Of a stretch of DNA of 64,000 bases, positions 10,070 through 41,091 are shown one piece after another. The position numbers and the translations under genes are program-made. How positions within the stretch are numbered: position 1 is the stretch's first letter; every line of letters starts with the position of its first letter. Origin of the DNA: Nitrosopumilus adriaticus (GTDB lineage Archaea > Thermoproteota > Nitrososphaeria > Nitrososphaerales > Nitrosopumilaceae); NCBI RefSeq assembly GCF_000956175.1, contig NZ_CP011070.1, positions 868,001 to 932,000 of the forward strand, given 5' to 3'. The notes under the pieces are model-generated. The model saw only the letters and a list, made by a program, of their open reading frames with translations, searched no databases and was not told the DNA's origin.

Positions 10070-10699
10070 ATGAAACAAAATACCAAAAAACATTCATTGC
10101 TATTAGCACTACCTGTGCTTGCAGCACTTGTTTTTGGAACAATTGGAACTTCTAATGCATTTGCAGAAGATGCAAGTTTTGGAATTGTTCCAGATTTGGT
10201 TTCACTTGAAAAGACTGATGCGTTTTTAGATGTATCATCTGAATCCCCAGTAGACAAAGCTGTAGTTCAATTTAGAGGCGGTACTGATGGATGGGCAATC
10301 ATAGGTGGTCAAGCATATGATTCAAAAATCGGAATTACCGGAAAAGCTGTTCATCAAGGTGATGGCGTTTGGAAAATAAAATCCAAAGCTGACATTGCTG
10401 TAGAAAACAGACATGCTACTCTAGAATTGAAAGGTAAAGCAGTTGATGGAAAACTTCGACTACATGGAACTGGAACATTAGATGGCGGAGAACCATTTAG
10501 AATAATTCTAAGAGGTAATTATGCTCCAATCTATGACCAACCAGGAGATTTCGTACTTGACTGGTCAATGGCTAAAATACAAAACATGGAAAATGGATTT
10601 AGAATTCCATTAGCACAAAACGGTGTAATTCATGTAGAGCCAGTAATGTCTATTGAAGAATTAGATTCTTTAGAAAGTGAAATAAGTATTGAGGAGTAA
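10070..10699 (+). CDS. Secreted protein, unknown
   Basis: A 209-residue protein with a clear Sec signal peptide: KKHS, a hydrophobic core LLLALPVLAALVFG, and a likely cleavage at NAFA-ED. The mature part is beta-rich with Gly-rich turns (FRGGTDGWAIIGGQ, GKAVDGKLRLHGTGTLDGG), suggesting an extracellular beta-sandwich. There is no C-terminal membrane anchor and no Cys in the mature part. A role in the cell envelope is inferred from secretion only. Confidence 0.75.
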   Translation: MKQNTKKHSLLLALPVLAALVFGTIGTSNAFAEDASFGIVPDLVSLEKTDAFLDVSSESPVDKAVVQFRGGTDGWAIIGGQAYDSKIGITGKAVHQGDGVWKIKSKADIAVENRHATLELKGKAVDGKLRLHGTGTLDGGEPFRIILRGNYAPIYDQPGDFVLDWSMAKIQNMENGFRIPLAQNGVIHVEPVMSIEELDSLESEISIEE

Positions 10700-10734: not shown

Positions 10735-10911
10735 TTAAGACTGTATACAATATTTGCATGGAGAAAATTTCTCTTTCAATGCTTCTTCAAGGATATCTGG
10801 AACAAAGTATGTTTTATCCTCTTTTTTCACATAGTAAATTTTGCAATCTGGAATCATACTGGCCAAATCATGAACTACCATATCTGATTTATTTCCAAGA
10901 TATCCTACCAT
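10735..10911 (-). CDS. Microprotein with C-terminal CxxC (Ada-Zn-like pattern)
   Basis: A 58-residue frame starting ATG at 10911. It contains VVHDLASMIPDC, then KTYFVPDILEEAL and a terminal SPCKYCI. The H...C...F...A...PCxxC order resembles the small metal-binding module found at the ends of some nucleases and in Ada, but the resemblance is only by eye. It is the last of the minus-strand microprotein genes in this stretch, and no convincing TATA box lies at the expected distance, so it may be read from an upstream promoter. Confidence 0.5.
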   Translation of the reverse strand: MVGYLGNKSDMVVHDLASMIPDCKIYYVKKEDKTYFVPDILEEALKEKFSPCKYCIQS

Positions 10912-10992
10912 GATAAAGAATCATTCCATTTTGCTGTCATGTGTTATTTTATACTATATGTCCTATAAACTAGATGAAAAATTGAAGTAATA

Positions 10993-11133
10993 CTATGATT
11001 TATTTTCTAAACACAAATTACATAATTTTTCAAAAGTCATGCTTTTGTTTGGCTTAAATTTATTCCCGCAATCTTCACATGTATTTTGTAAAATCAATTT
11101 TTCAACTGTGTCTTCATTTTGTGGGTTAGTCAA
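10993..11133 (-). CDS. Zinc-ribbon microprotein (CxxC...CxxC)
   Basis: A 46-residue frame starting with TTG that overlaps the stop of the preceding gene in a TTGA junction, which suggests translational coupling. It has CEDCGNKF and, 15 residues later, CNLCLENKS at the very C-terminus, a compact four-Cys zinc ribbon. Proteins this small with only a ribbon are usually adaptors or nucleic-acid binders; here the function is unknown. Confidence 0.6.
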   Translation of the reverse strand: MTNPQNEDTVEKLILQNTCEDCGNKFKPNKSMTFEKLCNLCLENKS

Positions 11134-11297
11134 TTATCCTCATTATTACTATTTGATTTATCCAGTTCATTTTTTAAATTATTATCACATTTTTTGATCT
11201 CTTCTTCTATTTTATTGATTTCTTCAATTGATAGGGTGAACTTGAATTCATCTTTTTTTGATGATTCCGCTTTGGATGTAATTTTATTGCTCGACAT
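11130..11297 (-). CDS. Charged coiled-coil microprotein
   Basis: A 55-residue frame from ATG 11297 with a Lys/Ser-rich start and a central helix (LSIEEINKIEEEIKKCDNNL) of heptad character; one Cys. It overlaps the upstream Cys/His microprotein gene by 14 bp and the downstream ribbon gene by 4 bp, so the three frames look like one operon. No family recognised. Confidence 0.5.
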   Translation of the reverse strand: MSSNKITSKAESSKKDEFKFTLSIEEINKIEEEIKKCDNNLKNELDKSNSNNEDN

Positions 11298-11442
11298 GTT
11301 TTACAATCCAATCTTTAACGGCCATATCTGTGCGATGATCTTGGCATCTTACATGAGGACATGGAATTAGTCTCTGACAATTCTCGTCTTCACATTTTCG
11401 ATAATTTCCAGGAATGTTGGTGTTTTTAGGTGTTATTTGCAA
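11284..11442 (-). CDS. Cys/His microprotein
   Basis: A frame of 52 residues if it starts at TTG 11442. It contains KCEDENCQRLIPCPHVRCQDH, giving four Cys and two His in a 21-residue stretch, enough for one or two zinc sites, then a short helix with DWIVKH. The start is uncertain: the frame is open for about 17 more codons upstream without ATG or GTG, and no clear TATA box is seen. The 3' end overlaps the next gene by 14 bp. Confidence 0.5.
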   Translation of the reverse strand: MQITPKNTNIPGNYRKCEDENCQRLIPCPHVRCQDHRTDMAVKDWIVKHVEQ

Positions 11443-11516
11443 ATTATGAATTCCATTTAGAAATGTAATGCTGCTTTTTAGTTAATTTATGAAAAATCAT
11501 TTTTTAAATTAAATTT

Positions 11517-11606
11517 TTAGATGCTTTTACATTCACACTTTTGTTGTTTTTCAAATCTAGGATATTTTAGCTTATGGCATACATCACAGTATAGTTGATT
11601 TGACAC
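11517..11606 (-). CDS. 29-residue CxxC...CxC microprotein
   Basis: A 30-codon frame from GTG 11606: CDVCHKLKYPRFEKQQKCEC, with four Cys in a ribbon-like spacing. A TATA-like CTTAATAC (minus strand, 11628-11635) is centred 25.5 bp upstream of the GTG, fitting a leaderless message. The product is extremely short, so coding status rests on the Cys spacing and the promoter. Confidence 0.4.
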   Translation of the reverse strand: MSNQLYCDVCHKLKYPRFEKQQKCECKSI

Positions 11607-11686
11607 ATCTATCTAATGCTGATTTGTGTATTAAGAGTATTGTATGATTCATCTACACTGAAAATTCAATCTTGTATATTTTAGAA

Positions 11687-11827
11687 TCATTGGTTTTGCG
11701 ATGTACTGATGTTGCCTTTAATATCAAGTATGTTTCCACATGTATCACATTCCCACTCTCCATTACAACTTAACTGGCTTGAATTCATGCCACTTGAAGT
11801 ATTGCACACTTTACATCTTAATGACAT
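11687..11827 (-). CDS. Zinc-ribbon microprotein
   Basis: A 46-residue frame from ATG 11827. It carries CKVC near the N-terminus, a lone Cys, then CDTCGNILDIKG, the knuckle-and-strand pattern of a zinc ribbon with C-terminal beta strand. It overlaps the preceding C2H2-like gene by 17 bp, so both are probably translated from one message. Function unknown. Confidence 0.6.
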   Translation of the reverse strand: MSLRCKVCNTSSGMNSSQLSCNGEWECDTCGNILDIKGNISTSQNQ

Positions 11828-11954
11828 TATTTTTATCCTTGTTAGTTTTCACTTTGGTTTTTGTTAAATGGTGTTTTTCATGTTCTCGTACTTTGTCAAA
11901 CGTATCAACTGTTCCTTCCCAGTGAAAATCACATTCACTGCATTGATATTTCAT
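11811..11954 (-). CDS. C2H2-like single zinc-finger microprotein
   Basis: A 47-residue frame from ATG 11954 that begins MKYQCSECDFHWEGTVDTF and continues to REHEKHH. This is C-x2-C-x16-H-x2-H-H, close to a classical C2H2 finger with a longer loop, followed by a Lys-rich tail suited to DNA or RNA contact. Its ATG overlaps the stop of the 31-residue frame upstream in an ATGA junction. Confidence 0.6.
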   Translation of the reverse strand: MKYQCSECDFHWEGTVDTFDKVREHEKHHLTKTKVKTNKDKNNVIKM

Positions 11955-12046
11955 TTTAGTTTCTCACATCTTTTTGGTGTGTTGGAAGTTTTTTGCTTGC
12001 TTGTCTTAAAAGATTCAAATTTTAATTTAATGATATTTTTTAACAT
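11951..12046 (-). CDS. 31-residue basic leader peptide
   Basis: A 32-codon frame from ATG 12046, rich in Lys and Ser, with one Cys. It is the first frame after a strong TATA box (ATATATA, 12068-12074) centred 25 bp upstream, and ends in an ATGA overlap with the C2H2-like gene. It may be a functional peptide or a leader that couples translation. Confidence 0.4.
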   Translation of the reverse strand: MLKNIIKLKFESFKTSKQKTSNTPKRCEKLK

Positions 12047-12067: not shown

Positions 12068-12074
12068 ATATATA
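12068..12074 (-). promoter_or_regulatory. TATA box of the microprotein operon
   Basis: ATATATA, centred 25 bp before ATG 12046 on the minus strand. It is the clearest promoter in the 10.7-12.05 kb stretch. Confidence 0.55.
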
Positions 12075-12100
12075 CCGGCGTAATTCAAATTAAAAAAATA

Positions 12101-12511
12101 CTAGTAGCCTTCTTCTCCTGGGAAAAGAAGACACCAATAGTTTGCATTAGTCTTTGCAGATTTTTTTTGACCAATCTTACATGGTCCGAATACCTTTCCA
12201 GCAGATAACTCTGACTGGTAATTTGGAACTCTCTGAATCTGCTTAACTATTGCTGGTGTTACAAAAAATGAACTTACCATTTGATTGTTCACATCAAATG
12301 TCTCCACAGTATCTATTACATTGTAATCTGTCAATCCATCATCTCCGATGGCCTCCTTTGGGGTATACGGAGATGGTTTGCCTCGATTGGTTCGAAAGTC
12401 TTTGATGTTGATGATTTTGCCTAAAATCTTGCCTATTCCTACGGCTTTGGTTTGTTCCTGTGGTTTGTTGTAATCACCTAAATTGATTTGAGTTTGTGTC
12501 GTTTCGTTCAT
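12101..12511 (-). CDS. Conserved-looking protein of unknown function
   Basis: A 136-residue soluble protein with a Gln/Thr-rich start (possibly disordered), then a compact beta-rich region including IINIKDFRTNRGKPSPYTP, FVTPAIVKQIQRVP, and two Cys near the end (FGPCKIG, NYWCLLFPGEEGY). No family is recognised. It lies directly upstream of the microprotein operon on the same strand and is divergent from thrS. Confidence 0.6.
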   Translation of the reverse strand: MNETTQTQINLGDYNKPQEQTKAVGIGKILGKIINIKDFRTNRGKPSPYTPKEAIGDDGLTDYNVIDTVETFDVNNQMVSSFFVTPAIVKQIQRVPNYQSELSAGKVFGPCKIGQKKSAKTNANYWCLLFPGEEGY

Positions 12512-30925: not shown

Positions 30926-30942
30926 TACCGTATGGTACGGTA
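30926..30942. promoter_or_regulatory. 17-bp palindrome, candidate operator
   Basis: TACCGTA-TGG-TACGGTA has perfect 7-bp arms. It ends 4 bp before the TTTATATC box of the small gene at 30977 and lies about 100 bp upstream of trpE on the other side, so a bound regulator could act on either. Confidence 0.55.
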
Positions 30943-30976
30943 CCTTTATATCATATTTGATCGTATCAAAATTACC

Positions 30977-31159
30977 ATGCAGGGGGTAAATCAGACTATG
31001 ATGCATAATATGCAAAGTCTATCAAAATCACAAACATCTGTTTCAAAAATAGAGTGCTATGTATGTGGTAAGGGATTAGAAGATGGTCATTGCATTACTG
31101 CCAAGACGTTGCCTAATGGAACAGTTCTATTTTGTGATGTTCATTATTCGTTACAATAG
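30977..31159 (+). CDS. Small Cys/His zinc-binding protein
   Basis: A 60-residue protein with a Met/Ser/Gln-rich N-terminus and a zinc module: CYVCGKGLEDGHC, then FCDVHY at the end. ATG 30977 is preferred over the upstream in-frame start at 30932 because TTTATATC (30946-30952) is centred 28 bp before it. It is divergent from trpE and shares the palindrome region. Function unknown; a regulator of the adjacent operon is possible but unproven. Confidence 0.6.
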   Translation: MQGVNQTMMHNMQSLSKSQTSVSKIECYVCGKGLEDGHCITAKTLPNGTVLFCDVHYSLQ

Positions 31160-31202: not shown

Positions 31203-31505
31203 TCAATCAACACTTTTTTTAGAAATCATATTCCCAAATGTTATTAGTATTTTACATGACTCATGATATCGTGTATCGATGATCATATTACAATTAGTGC
31301 AGCTACGTAAGGATGGTCTCCTACAAAAGATGCATACTGATATTGGAACAAGTGCTCCATCACATCTGCTACACGCATAAAAAATGCTCTTTGAGAGAAT
31401 AACGTCATCCTTTGAATTTATGGACTGGTTTTGAGAAATGTTGGGGATATGTTTCTCATCATTGTAACGATTTTTGATAACACTTGTTTCTCTCAAAGAA
31501 CTCAT
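31203..31505 (-). CDS. Multi-Cys zinc protein
   Basis: A 100-residue protein with a polar, Asn/Ser-rich N-terminal half and three Cys pairs in the second half (CSRC, CIFC, CTNC) plus a final Cys, consistent with two zinc knuckles. ATG 31505 follows a CATATAAC box centred 25.5 bp upstream, and a TGTGGCATGCC element lies 20 bp beyond that box. Function unknown. Confidence 0.6.
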   Translation of the reverse strand: MSSLRETSVIKNRYNDEKHIPNISQNQSINSKDDVILSKSIFYACSRCDGALVPISVCIFCRRPSLRSCTNCNMIIDTRYHESCKILITFGNMISKKSVD

Positions 31506-35988: not shown

Positions 35989-38900
35989 ATGATACAACAT
36001 AAGAAAATTTTTTCAATATTTCTTTCTATTTTAATCCTAAGCGGTAGTATTTCCCTTGCTAGTTTTTCTAATGTTGAAGCACAAACATCCTATCTTTATG
36101 TCTCAGCTTCAAATCCTTTATCTCAAAACCGTGTTGCTGGTCCACAAGTAATAGAAGTTGTAGTACGTGATCAAAATATTTCTGATACTGGTAAAGGACT
36201 GGGAGAACCTGATGTTACAATTAATGGAAAAGATTTGCGAATGACTCAGGCTACAGATGGAAATTGGTATGGTTATTTTTCTGATAGGCGACAAGCTCAG
36301 ATTGCAGATAGCACAGTTGGTCTTACTGGAAAAGGACTTGACTTTGGAACCTTCTGTTCTAGAAATACTTCTGTCCTTGGAGTTTCTGTATCGGATACTG
36401 AAGGCATTGCAATTCCTGTAAGTGGTTCAGGCATTGGAGGTGAAAACGGCATTAACCCTCCTAATCAAATCACACAAGATTGTTCTTTGTCTTCACCCTA
36501 CACAAAAAATTCGATGAATGTTGTAAGACAAGCAAAGGCAATGAATCCTGGAAACAGCATTGTCAAACTTGGACAAATTGGATTGACCTCTCAAGATCTG
36601 TGGCCATTTATTCAACTCTATGATTTTTCAAAAGGAGGAAACATAGAAATTCAATACAATAGGGGCGGTGGACCACAAAAGACTACTCTAACTTTTGACA
36701 CTTCTGAAAAACTAGTCAAACATGAATTAGACAGGTCAACTTATCCAAGATCATCTGATGTTAATCTAAAAATAACAGATCTAACGCTTAACATTGATCC
36801 TACTGATGAAGATTCATGGTCATTTGGAACTTCATCAAGTCCATCTACATACTATTTACTTTATGAAGAATCCGGAAAAGTAGATTCTGATGGAACATCC
36901 GGCGCTGTTGATTTGGTGCCTTATCTCAGCTCTATGATGTTCAAAGACAATGGAATTCTAAAAATTAATCCTAGTACTCAGGGACAAGCAAATGTCATTA
37001 CCATAAGAGACAATGATAATTCTGCAACAAACGGTGATGGTGAAATTGACATCTCCCTTATCTCAACATCAGCTGGCTCAATTGGGGCTGGCAAACAACC
37101 AGTAACAATAACTGAAACATCTCCCAATAGTGGAATTTTTACTACCTATGATCCAAACAATGATTCTGTCCTGATCACAACTCAAAATGCACAAAGAGGA
37201 ACATCTGCAACAATTGAATACAACAAAAAACCTGTAACTCTGCTAATTGGATTTGGCAAGGGTGTCATATCACTTGATGAAACATTGAAAGGAACTGAAT
37301 GGAATTCTGGTGAAGAGATGCCCGTAATTTTGATTGATTCTGATTCAAACAAAAATAATCTTGAAAAAGAGGATCTGGATTTGTTTAATCCTTTCTACAA
37401 GGCAATCCCTGCTCTGAGTACCGGTGATCCATTTACTTTGGGTGAAAGCGGCGTTGGCGATACAACAAAAATAAAATCTTCTTTTCTCTCAGGGTTTACT
37501 CTTACTCCCGTGTCTAACAAGTTTACTTTGTCCTCCTCAACTTTGGGAACAACTACGACCACATCAGTTGAAAAATTCAGTGACAGAGCACGAATTGATC
37601 CGACTACAACAACCAATGCAAATGCACTGGTAATAGATCTTAAAACTCCAATCAAGGAACTTTATGGTTCAATTAACAATCCATTTGATCCTGCAAAAAA
37701 ATTCAAAGGATTAAACATGTTTAACTATGATATTCGTTCTTTGAACAATACAATACAGAATGTCGATGTTTATCTGTTAGTTAATGAATTGTCTTCTGAC
37801 ATTCTTGATTCTTCTGGAAATCCTGTAAATAATTTATCTGCAATAAAGATTGTATCTGATACTCGACTTCAAAATTTAATTAATCTAAATTCTACACAAC
37901 AAGTTTCTAATCCTCAAACCCTTCATTCAAATTTATTTTCTCAATCTTACACTGGAAATGAGCCAATTGGATTGATGTTTACTTTTACTCCAATTCAAAA
38001 CATTGGTATGGAAACTAGGCCTATAGTTGCTGATTTCTTTTCATATGGAATTCTAAATGATGGTCTTACAAAACAACAACGAATTGCAAATCAAATTGTA
38101 CGTGTCGAAATGGAGGAATTGACAAAGGACTCTGGAAAGTTTAGGGGAAGTCTGGAATATATCATGCTAAACCAATTGAATATCTTTAATCCTGCAACAT
38201 ATGAAAAAATCAATCCAATTGATGACGAACCCATCTTTCTTGTAATTGATGAATTAAAAGGAAATGATGCTCCAAGAATTAATTTTAATGACTTGGGTTC
38301 TGATGGGGTACTAACTGCAATCTCAGACCAACAAGACGTACTTTCACATATGGGTATTGTAATTTTGTCAATAAAGTCATTCAAGCCTGGTGATACAGTT
38401 GGTGTGACGTTGCTTGACAAGGATCTAAATGTGGATTCAGACCTTGTTGATATCTATACCGTAGTTGATCCATCAAAATTTCCCAATGATGTGGCATCTG
38501 ATACAGTCGGACTGCCAAATTTGGGAATGATGAAAAATGAGCCTTTTGGACAGCTATTGGAAATAACATTTGATGATGAACGTTGGTTAAAATCTACAGT
38601 CCCTTCTAATGGTAAATCATGCTCTGCAATTTCTGGAAGTGACGGGTTAGCTTCAACTGGATTTACTCTAGTTGAAACTGGACGGAAAACTGGGGAATTT
38701 GTCGGATCATTTAAGATTCCCTCTCAGTACTGCTCAAGAAATGATGGTGGTATAGTAAAATCTACAACAGGGGTGGACATTGGTGCAAGATACTATGATT
38801 TTCGAGGAACATCTAGTCAAGCTGCAGTAACCAGTGCTAGTGCAACTGTTGGTGCAACAAGTGGTTTGGTAAAACTGGATAGAAGTAGCTATCCAGTACC

Positions 38901-41091
38901 TGTGGGCTCTATTTCAGACTTTTTTGATACGGGAAAATCTTCCTCAACAAGACCTGATGGGCATTCTATCTTTCCTTTCCATCTAACTGCAATTACTAAA
39001 AATGGTGATACAAAGGCAATTGATTCTGGAGAAGAACTAGGACCCCAAGACACAATTCTTTATGTTCAAATTCATGATGCAGACTATAATCTCTCACCAA
39101 ATGGGGAAGATACAATTTCACAAAACATTGTTGGGTCAAACGGACCAGTAAAAGTTTTGGTTACTCGCGGAACATCTAGCTTGCTTTTGGCTACAGCTGG
39201 CGGTGAAGAAGCAAAACAAGGAGTCATCACAACTGGAAAGAATACAAAAAGCGGAATTACTAGAGAACTAGGTCCAATTTTGGAGACTGCTCCAAGCTCT
39301 GGAATATTTCAGTTTAAACTCCCTCTGCGATACAGTGATGGACCGTCATCGACAAAATGTCCTCCTACAACCACATTCACAAAATTGGATAATACTAAAA
39401 CTGGCGTTCTGTCACGATTTGATGCATCTCCCTCTACTGGGAATTACTGTATTTTGAAAGGCGATGTGATTACAGTAGAATACTCTGATCAAACCGATGC
39501 ATCTGGTTCTCCAAGAACAGTAACTGGTTCTGCGGCATTTGATCTAAGGATAGGCTCTCTACAGTCCGATAAATCTTCATACATTATTGGACGTGATGTG
39601 ATACTGACTTTGATTGATCCTGATCTTAATTTTGACTCTAAAAAGGCTGAAACACATTCACTTGATGTTTTAGAATGGGACTCCGATGATGCTAGGGTGA
39701 CAATGGGTAATCTTGGAGGTGCAATTACTAAAAATGGAAAAATTTTCGATTCACAGCCATTTGGTCTTCGTGAAACAGGCGACTCTACGGGAATATTCCA
39801 AACCATTCTTAAAATTCCATCTGAAATTAATAACAAACCCGTAGATAGAGATGAAACAATTGAGATTACGTATACTGATTGGGGCACTTCTGGCTCTGAC
39901 TTTGTAGGTAAGACAGACCAGAAGGTAGAACTCAAATTCTATACTTCTAATTTACAATCCTTGATTACACTAGATAAGAAAGTATACTCTTGGACAGAAA
40001 AAGTCTACATTACAATTGTTGCACCTGATCATAATTTTGATGAATACAAAATTGATCCAATAGGTCAAAATGAAAAAAATGAAATCAAGATATCTACTAG
40101 ATCAAACAAGCTTTCACAATACAAACTTGTAGAGACTGGTACTGATACTGGAATATTTACAGGCGAAGTCATACTTACAGGATTCAAGCATGATGCTGAT
40201 GGTAATCCTAGAACTGGCGATATAGACGGCATTGATACAATGCCTAGAACAGAACCTAAAAGTAAAGGGGGGCCGACAAATGGATTTTTAGAATCTAAAC
40301 ATGATGATGGGCTAACTGTGTCATTCAAATTCAATGACCGAGAAACAACAACCTCCTCAGCTCTGATTAGATGGAATATTGGTGCTGTAGAATGGATTCA
40401 GGGTGTAACCTCATCTAATGGTATTGGTGTGATTAGGGTTATTGATCCAGACATGAATCTAAATCCTGAAACAGTAAATACATTTACAATTGATGTGTGG
40501 TCTGATTCCGATCTTGGTGGGATAGATCTTACAGTAATTGAAACAGGGCCTGCAACTGGTATATTTGAAGGACAAGTCATATTGACCAGTAAGGACCAAT
40601 CTTCTGGAAATAAACTTCGAGTATCTGATGGGGATACCATTACAGCAAAGTATGAGGACCATACGTTGCCAAAACCATATTCTACTGCAGATGAGCTAAA
40701 GATTTCAGCAACTGCATATGTGGGTCCAATCATTCCTCCTTTAGAGCGTATTCCAATATCCAATCCTAGAACTGTTGATTCTTTTGGAAATGTGCTAAAT
40801 GATGTTTATGTTGATCAACAAGTCCAAATCACTGCAAATCTATTAAACAAAAATATTGCAAACCAACCTTTTACCTATCTGGTTCAAATTAATAACTCTA
40901 CAAACTCTGTGGAATCCCTATCATGGATCACTGGAACTTTGTTAGAGGGTCAATCATTTTCCCCCTCTGTATCTTGGATTCCTGACAGTTCTGGAAAATA
41001 CACTGCAACAATTTTTGTTTGGCAAACTCTTAGCAATCCTGTAGCTTTGAGTCCTCCAATCAAACTGGATATGATGGTAATTGAAAATTAA
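35989..41091 (+). CDS. S-layer-type major surface protein
   Basis: A 1700-residue secreted protein with a signal peptide (IFSIFLSILILSGSISLASF, cleavage near VEAQ) and no membrane anchor. It matches in size and character the approximately 1730-residue S-layer protein known from Nitrosopumilus maritimus. The chain consists of repeated Ig-like domains; a motif of the form ET-G-xx-TGIF recurs at least six times (ETGRKTGEF, ETGDSTGIF, ETGTDTGIF, ETGPATGIF and variants), and Asp-rich turns (DPDLNFD, DPDMNLN, DADYNL) look like Ca2+ sites. The shell is thought to form the outer surface and channel ammonium; that is known for relatives, not shown here. Confidence 0.85.
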   Translation: MIQHKKIFSIFLSILILSGSISLASFSNVEAQTSYLYVSASNPLSQNRVAGPQVIEVVVRDQNISDTGKGLGEPDVTINGKDLRMTQATDGNWYGYFSDRRQAQIADSTVGLTGKGLDFGTFCSRNTSVLGVSVSDTEGIAIPVSGSGIGGENGINPPNQITQDCSLSSPYTKNSMNVVRQAKAMNPGNSIVKLGQIGLTSQDLWPFIQLYDFSKGGNIEIQYNRGGGPQKTTLTFDTSEKLVKHELDRSTYPRSSDVNLKITDLTLNIDPTDEDSWSFGTSSSPSTYYLLYEESGKVDSDGTSGAVDLVPYLSSMMFKDNGILKINPSTQGQANVITIRDNDNSATNGDGEIDISLISTSAGSIGAGKQPVTITETSPNSGIFTTYDPNNDSVLITTQNAQRGTSATIEYNKKPVTLLIGFGKGVISLDETLKGTEWNSGEEMPVILIDSDSNKNNLEKEDLDLFNPFYKAIPALSTGDPFTLGESGVGDTTKIKSSFLSGFTLTPVSNKFTLSSSTLGTTTTTSVEKFSDRARIDPTTTTNANALVIDLKTPIKELYGSINNPFDPAKKFKGLNMFNYDIRSLNNTIQNVDVYLLVNELSSDILDSSGNPVNNLSAIKIVSDTRLQNLINLNSTQQVSNPQTLHSNLFSQSYTGNEPIGLMFTFTPIQNIGMETRPIVADFFSYGILNDGLTKQQRIANQIVRVEMEELTKDSGKFRGSLEYIMLNQLNIFNPATYEKINPIDDEPIFLVIDELKGNDAPRINFNDLGSDGVLTAISDQQDVLSHMGIVILSIKSFKPGDTVGVTLLDKDLNVDSDLVDIYTVVDPSKFPNDVASDTVGLPNLGMMKNEPFGQLLEITFDDERWLKSTVPSNGKSCSAISGSDGLASTGFTLVETGRKTGEFVGSFKIPSQYCSRNDGGIVKSTTGVDIGARYYDFRGTSSQAAVTSASATVGATSGLVKLDRSSYPVPVGSISDFFDTGKSSSTRPDGHSIFPFHLTAITKNGDTKAIDSGEELGPQDTILYVQIHDADYNLSPNGEDTISQNIVGSNGPVKVLVTRGTSSLLLATAGGEEAKQGVITTGKNTKSGITRELGPILETAPSSGIFQFKLPLRYSDGPSSTKCPPTTTFTKLDNTKTGVLSRFDASPSTGNYCILKGDVITVEYSDQTDASGSPRTVTGSAAFDLRIGSLQSDKSSYIIGRDVILTLIDPDLNFDSKKAETHSLDVLEWDSDDARVTMGNLGGAITKNGKIFDSQPFGLRETGDSTGIFQTILKIPSEINNKPVDRDETIEITYTDWGTSGSDFVGKTDQKVELKFYTSNLQSLITLDKKVYSWTEKVYITIVAPDHNFDEYKIDPIGQNEKNEIKISTRSNKLSQYKLVETGTDTGIFTGEVILTGFKHDADGNPRTGDIDGIDTMPRTEPKSKGGPTNGFLESKHDDGLTVSFKFNDRETTTSSALIRWNIGAVEWIQGVTSSNGIGVIRVIDPDMNLNPETVNTFTIDVWSDSDLGGIDLTVIETGPATGIFEGQVILTSKDQSSGNKLRVSDGDTITAKYEDHTLPKPYSTADELKISATAYVGPIIPPLERIPISNPRTVDSFGNVLNDVYVDQQVQITANLLNKNIANQPFTYLVQINNSTNSVESLSWITGTLLEGQSFSPSVSWIPDSSGKYTATIFVWQTLSNPVALSPPIKLDMMVIEN

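Follow-up and report, generated by a model that had tools for sequence, protein, structure and literature searches.

A cluster of tiny minus-strand genes occupies positions 10735-12046 of the stretch of Nitrosopumilus adriaticus DNA analysed here (the window, 64,000 nucleotides), where the original prediction had seen eight genes in a region that looks empty. By comparison with related genomes, this cluster is a patchwork of two operons that recur in Nitrosopumilaceae, H37-G47-F46-E29 and J55-TFBz-D52-N92-CB, the second of which contains a divergent paralog of the archaeal general transcription factor TFB, named TFBz. The frames are almost certainly real protein-coding genes. Their products are probably cofactors of TFB-dependent transcription initiation resembling Brz/Brb, a role suggested by neighbourhood, fold and analogy.

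Eight small frames on the minus strand

The complete genome to which the window belongs measures 1.80 Mb and comes from the Nitrosopumilus group; relatives with the same gene families belong to Nitrosopumilus and Nitrosarchaeum. The region of interest is flanked by a plus-strand gene of 209 residues ending at 10699 and by a minus-strand gene of 136 residues at 12101-12511. Its longest competing frame lies on the plus strand and has 83 residues. On the minus strand, all eight frames of the original prediction are present, head to tail and with the lengths and coordinates it had given. We labelled them in transcription order (H31, G47, F46, E29, D52, C55, B46 and A58), and give them here with two upstream elements:

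12069..12078, minus strand: BRE/TATA promoter CCGGTATATA of the H-G-F run (exact match; same distance before H37 elsewhere)
11951-12046, minus strand: H31, a degenerate short copy of H37 (family alignment; frameshift in L051; pI 10.3)
11811-11954, minus strand: G47, C2H2-type zinc finger micro-protein with C5, C8, H25 and H29 (invariant columns, AlphaFold model)
11687-11827, minus strand: F46, zinc ribbon micro-protein with CxxC and CxxCG (dN/dS, recurring order)
11607..11640, minus strand: putative TATA-like element upstream of E29, conserved in position (alignment of E29 upstream regions)
11517-11606, minus strand: E29, CxxC...CxC peptide with a GTG start (identity at other loci, dN/dS)
11284-11442, minus strand: D52, Cys/His-rich protein with a TTG start (invariant columns, dN/dS, adjacency of TFBz and D52)
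11130-11297, minus strand: C55, N-terminal half of CB (one protein in other loci)
10993-11133, minus strand: B46, C-terminal zinc ribbon half of CB with a TTG start (dN/dS)
10735-10911, minus strand: A58, predicted Ada-like metal-binding micro-protein (24-copy alignment, dN/dS, N-Ada fold match)

The overlaps reported earlier were found again: 4 bp between H31 and G47 (ATGA), 17 bp between G47 and F46, 14 bp between D52 and C55, and 4 bp between C55 and B46 (TTGA). The translated sequences also bear out the Cys-rich, zinc-type motifs predicted for six of the frames, whereas H31 and C55 each contain a single Cys. The reading of these frames as small coding frames holds, but they are not eight independent genes. 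In L056, L059, L065, L069, L071, L072, L082 and L086, a single protein of 81-103 residues, CB, corresponds to C55 and B46 together. In the window and in L051, the locus of a syntenic relative, CB is split at the same junction, with a TTG codon starting the second half. By this comparison C55 and B46 are the two halves of a single protein, separated in the window. The second correction concerns H31. The H37 family consists of small basic peptides (MFKKIIEKLKFGSCKTK..DDVNAFKESEKK, pI 9.1-9.9), the conserved motifs of which are lost in H31, and L051 is frameshifted in H31. Judged from the family alignment, H31 is a degenerate, shortened copy of a real family. We also considered that H31 might be promoter or leader DNA only, which was ruled out since the alignment shows a real H37 peptide elsewhere.

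Evidence for coding and selection

A DNA search matched 41 of the 60 genomes of the genus, many of the matches being confined to single frames and lying at other genomic places. With tblastn over 40 fetched loci, the window included, the aligned pieces numbered 38 for G47, 28 for A58, 14 each for B46 and F46, 11 for E29, 10 for C55, 8 for D52 and 3 for H31. The Cys frames are conserved in relatives, and their families recur at other Nitrosopumilaceae loci.

Purifying selection, which the original prediction had proposed to look for, is clear in five frames. Between the window and L051, dN/dS was 0.07 for A58 (binomial P 3.5e-7), 0.07 for F46 (P 1.1e-6), 0.09 for D52 (P 2.3e-5) and 0.15 for B46 (P 8.5e-4); for E29 it was 0.20 against L051 and 0.07 against L054 (P 2.5e-4 for the latter). 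The same pairwise test was weak for C55 and G47 (both 0.41) and for H31 (0.31 over 17 codons). The reality of G47 is nevertheless secured by its Cys and His residues, which are invariant across 35 copies (ten invariant columns, including C5, C8, H25 and H29). Other families show comparable columns: D52 has 28 that are invariant in 7 copies, J55 has seven invariant Cys and one His, and in the 24-copy alignment of A58 residues H14, C23 and C52 are invariant and residue C55 nearly so. E29 is 72-93% identical at ten other loci by tblastn.

If the other strand were the coding one, stops would be expected in the Cys frames opposite open plus-strand frames. The opposite was observed, as several plus-strand frames facing the genes are interrupted by stops in L051, L053 or L054. 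It is hardly conceivable that the conservation reflects regulatory DNA or RNA and not proteins. Conservation at the DNA level does extend over the promoter regions of H31 and E29, but substitutions in the minus-strand frames are biased towards synonymous ones, stops occur in the plus-strand frames of relatives, and an Rfam search of 9.5-13 kb gave no match. For A58, D52, F46, E29 and B46, this reading is already refuted. Several conserved genes without an entry in Pfam, NCBIfam, PHROGs or PADLOC can be hidden in a stretch that looks empty for want of any frame above 83 residues.

Two recurring operons and a TFB paralog

ORF clustering over the fetched loci placed the same small genes around TFBz. 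This protein is a TFB by its TFIIB repeats (PF00382, 3e-33, in two stretches), like other members of the archaeal TFB family, which has multiple TFBs in ammonia-oxidising archaea. Unlike a typical TFB gene, its gene is embedded among micro-protein genes. A possible N-terminal zinc ribbon scores 26.5 bits with PF08271 (cut-off 29), and the protein falls below the NCBIfam subfamily cut-off. The TFBz copies are 70-91% identical to the copy in L059, which in turn shares about 46-47% identity with the TFB found beside TBP. At the threshold used, TFBz was found in 11 of 95 genomes of the genus.

The full arrangement, H37-G47-F46(-E29) followed by J55-TFBz-D52-N92-CB, occurs as one run in L056 and L065, and with members missing in L059 and L073. 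In L175, L184 and L202 the two parts are separate, often divergent operons. J55 lies immediately upstream of TFBz in all 11 sampled TFBz loci, and D52 or CB immediately downstream in nine of them. Among 99 distinct G47 copies, H37 is within 150 nt before G47 in 62, and G47 is followed by F46 in 26. D52 is also found in genomes without TFBz, and H-G-F-E alone in other genera. The original prediction had argued for real operons; the frames do belong to recurring operons, two in number, with conserved order and promoters.

J55, TFBz and N92 are absent from the window, so that its cluster corresponds to the H-G-F-E operon, the tail of the TFBz operon and A58. At the threshold used, TFBz was not found in the window's own genome, which has 11 matches to the TFB profile. 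L082 and L072 retain TFBz remnants, placed between CB and F46 or G47; hence, loss of the tfb gene from such operons has occurred elsewhere. In L051, 1.7 kb of extra DNA separates E29 from D52, and we expected the missing TFB there, but it is absent. The earlier suggestion of a self-contained, dedicated system is not supported for this locus. Seen over many genomes, the frames belong to operons linked to TFB paralogs, and the locus is a TFB-less variant.

Promoters and translation

The TATA box predicted before position 12046 is present as TATATA at 12069-12074, inside CCGGTATATA, its centre lying about 25 nt ahead of the H31 start. A GCCGGTATATATC-like BRE/TATA element lies about 25 nt before the H37 start codon in nearly all aligned loci, the window included. 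The second predicted box, before 11606, is conserved in position at a similar distance, but it is a weaker, TATA-like site. Because the distance of the first element from the start is the usual archaeal TATA-to-start spacing, the mRNA of the H-G-F run would be leaderless and begin at the H frame. The 4-bp overlap of H and G suggests translational coupling; together with a transcript that begins at the H frame and has no leader, it would couple the translation of the two frames.

Motif classes and predicted folds

AlphaFold models G47 as beta-beta-alpha (strands at 2-4 and 11-13, helix at 20-37) with pLDDT of about 90 over residues 1-30. The C2H2-like finger noted in the original prediction is thus consistent with the model, in which the invariant C5, C8, H25 and H29 supply CxxC...HxxxH ligands within a beta-beta-alpha fold. 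In classical C2H2 fingers, the second Cys and the first His are separated by about 12 residues. In G47 this spacing is 16 residues, and the Pfam C2H2 family gave no match. A PDB fold search with G47 returned no significant match, with C2H2 fingers among the best weak ones.

The model of A58 has a moderate mean pLDDT of 79. Its best PDB fold match is the DNA-bound N-Ada (1u8b; TMq 0.64, prob 1.00, Foldseek E 0.05). N-Ada has four Cys ligands, including the methyl-accepting Cys. A58 resembles it in the C-terminal CxxC, but its conserved Cys number three, alongside His14, it lacks a methyltransferase domain, and it stays below the cut-off of 23 bits for PF02805, with 15.2 bits in the window and 19.6 bits in L080. 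Sequence searches of the PDB with A58, G47 and J55 profiles gave weak matches only.

CPxCG-related zinc finger micro-proteins have been described as proteins of fewer than 100 aa in which two Cys/His patterns, one or both of them CPxCG-like, are spaced by 7-40 residues (PMC2253796). F46 (CKVC and CDTCG) and B46 (CEDCG and CNLC) fall within this definition; A58, D52, E29 and G47 do not.

Linkage to tfb genes and proposed function

In 30 genomes, a TFB among the matches listed is located no more than 3 kb from at least 19 of the 55 copies of G47, against 3.4 expected, a value that assumes a generous 15 TFBs per genome, the copies being counted without phylogenetic correction. The true figure may be higher, because the TFB matches are those listed and some copies are on short contigs. 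Several loci carry H37-G47 followed by I31 or F46 beside a TBP-TFB pair. One of them is L050, in the window's genome, where a second H37-G47-I31 run (G000:C1:823917-825782, L050 8918-10782) is convergent to such a pair. A third G47-type copy in this genome (G000:C1:453813-453914, L183) has none of the other families within 14 kb. The linkage is not universal, since G47 also occurs beside purF with A58 divergent, and as H37-G47-A58 in Nitrosarchaeum with no TFB in the fetched stretch. In L154, L155, L160, L161, L162 and L164, A58 is divergent from H37-G47-I31 in a fixed place beside purF and the gene of a small acidic protein, P66. Other tiny Cys-rich families (K32, M42 and S47) recur beside H37-G47 in L056, L063, L189, L199 and L200, with K32-M42 divergent. 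A protein with a class III adenylate/guanylate cyclase domain (PF00211) is encoded near TFB/micro-protein loci (L069 3342-4130; L063 4403-5194 and 9748-10542), and a signalling link is possible.

The closest known parallel is the Brz/Brb pair of Halobacterium salinarum, in which bop transcription is under the control of a small zinc finger protein and of a small basic protein co-transcribed with it; comparable pairs, including the bp4-OE2447F analogue, are situated next to other regulators (PMC2253796, PMC3184054). H37-G47 is likewise a small basic protein gene overlapping a small zinc-finger gene beside transcription regulators. It differs in that the basic peptide comes first, the neighbours are TFB or TBP genes, the operon is longer, and the motif of G47 is C2H2-type whereas that of Brz is CPxCG-related. 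The C2H2 finger AFV1p06 of an archaeal virus (PMC3541406), which binds DNA, is similar to G47 in its small size and C2H2-like fold; G47, by contrast, is chromosomal, gave no relative in viral contigs, and is set apart by its longer Cys-His spacing and lack of a Pfam C2H2 match.

Neighbourhood, the pairing of a basic peptide with a zinc finger, and the folds all point to transcription initiation. We therefore favour, with some reservation, the cofactor role given at the outset, in which the micro-proteins are predicted to bind zinc and to serve TFB-dependent initiation as small cofactors or regulators. It builds on the coding nature, conservation, operon order, promoter position and statistical linkage to tfb, all of which were computed. 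Each tfb paralog would travel with micro-proteins that tune its TBP/RNA polymerase assembly or promoter choice. As copies in relatives surround a spare TFB copy, the genes probably help to decide which genes are switched on. The surviving proteins cannot depend on TFBz alone, because the window's genome keeps their genes without it; there they would act with other TFBs. The RNA-binding role raised as an option by the original prediction gained no particular support from anything found.

A role apart from TFBs seems unlikely on balance. The families would then be free-standing zinc micro-proteins with roles in stress, RNA or metal biology, co-housed with tfb genes in a plastic accessory region. 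The H37-G47 copies beside purF, the H37-G47-A58 operons and the occurrence of H-G-F-E alone in other genera would fit this, as would the zinc micro-proteins of Haloferax, which reportedly affect stress adaptation, biofilm formation and swarming (PMC6562870). But J55, TFBz and D52 or CB adjoin one another in almost every copy sampled, which is too regular for mere co-housing, and several tfb and tbp contexts recur. The C(P)XCG micro-proteins of Haloferax volcanii are also archaeal, under 100 aa and equipped with paired Cys motifs; they are described as individual proteins (PMC6562870, PMC11241148), whereas here several families are arranged in conserved operons that go with one TFB type.

Starting from the cofactor role, we tentatively raise a broader possibility: in Nitrosopumilaceae, tfb paralogs might be packaged with interchangeable zinc micro-proteins, among them the basic peptide, the C2H2 finger and the ribbons, that gate or retarget individual TFBs, forming a modular layer of initiation of which the window holds a TFB-free version acting on other TFBs. 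With similar reserve, such a layer could be read as a micro-protein counterpart, for the archaeal general transcription factor, of the regulators of sigma factors. A literature search that mostly did not reach subscription papers turned up no description of micro-proteins linked to tfb genes. Several TFBs occur in many of the ammonia-oxidising archaea, a group that is highly abundant in the ocean. As a testable candidate for how these TFBs are told apart, we propose the conserved zinc micro-proteins that accompany one TFB type. In N. maritimus, which has eight TFBs, the dominant one changes between planktonic and biofilm growth (PMC12448741).

Distribution and state of the copy in the window

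A search over 400 genomes of the class gave G47 in 81, every one from the window's family, and A58 in 69, with a few outside it. The closest relatives retain subsets of the cluster: L051 (genome G013) keeps G-F-E, D, the split CB and A58, L053 (G039) keeps F-E-A with a damaged G47, and L057 (G031) keeps E-A. L055 (G059) has A58 alone at the locus, its H-G-F-E and TFBz operon lying elsewhere. From these comparisons, the cluster is accessory and is eroding in places, with the retained genes under selection.

These subsets, together with the loss of TFBz, J55 and N92, the split CB and the degenerate H31, could indicate a decaying relic of the TFBz operon with little function left. We regard this as improbable, as A58, D52, F46, E29 and B46 have been under strong purifying selection after the split from L051, the promoters are intact, and TFB-less arrangements persist in other genomes. 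The patchy distribution over many genomic places might also suggest the cargo of a virus, a plasmid or a defence island. This is very improbable, given that viral contigs gave no relatives of G47, A58 or D52, and that none were found for F46 in phages or for D52 in plasmids. PADLOC and PHROGs produced no convincing match for the small proteins, and no tRNA was found in the window. More generally, the small proteins have no match above the curated cut-offs of Pfam, NCBIfam, PHROGs and PADLOC, the weak matches being attributable to chance.

Other observations in the window

The 136-residue neighbour (12101-12511, minus strand) has no Pfam match and is 84-99% identical where present, yet its full-length matches are confined to 17 of 60 genomes of the genus; in G018 (L065) its 3' end adjoins a full TFBz operon. 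For the protein of 1700 residues encoded on the plus strand at 35989-41091, Pfam gave no match at E 0.01. Two further small frames lie in another gap that lacks long genes: a plus-strand frame of 75 residues with CxxC and CxxH at 30932-31159, and a minus-strand frame of 100 residues at 31203-31505, the double zinc motif of which resembles that of J55 (30% identity, tblastn E 0.001).
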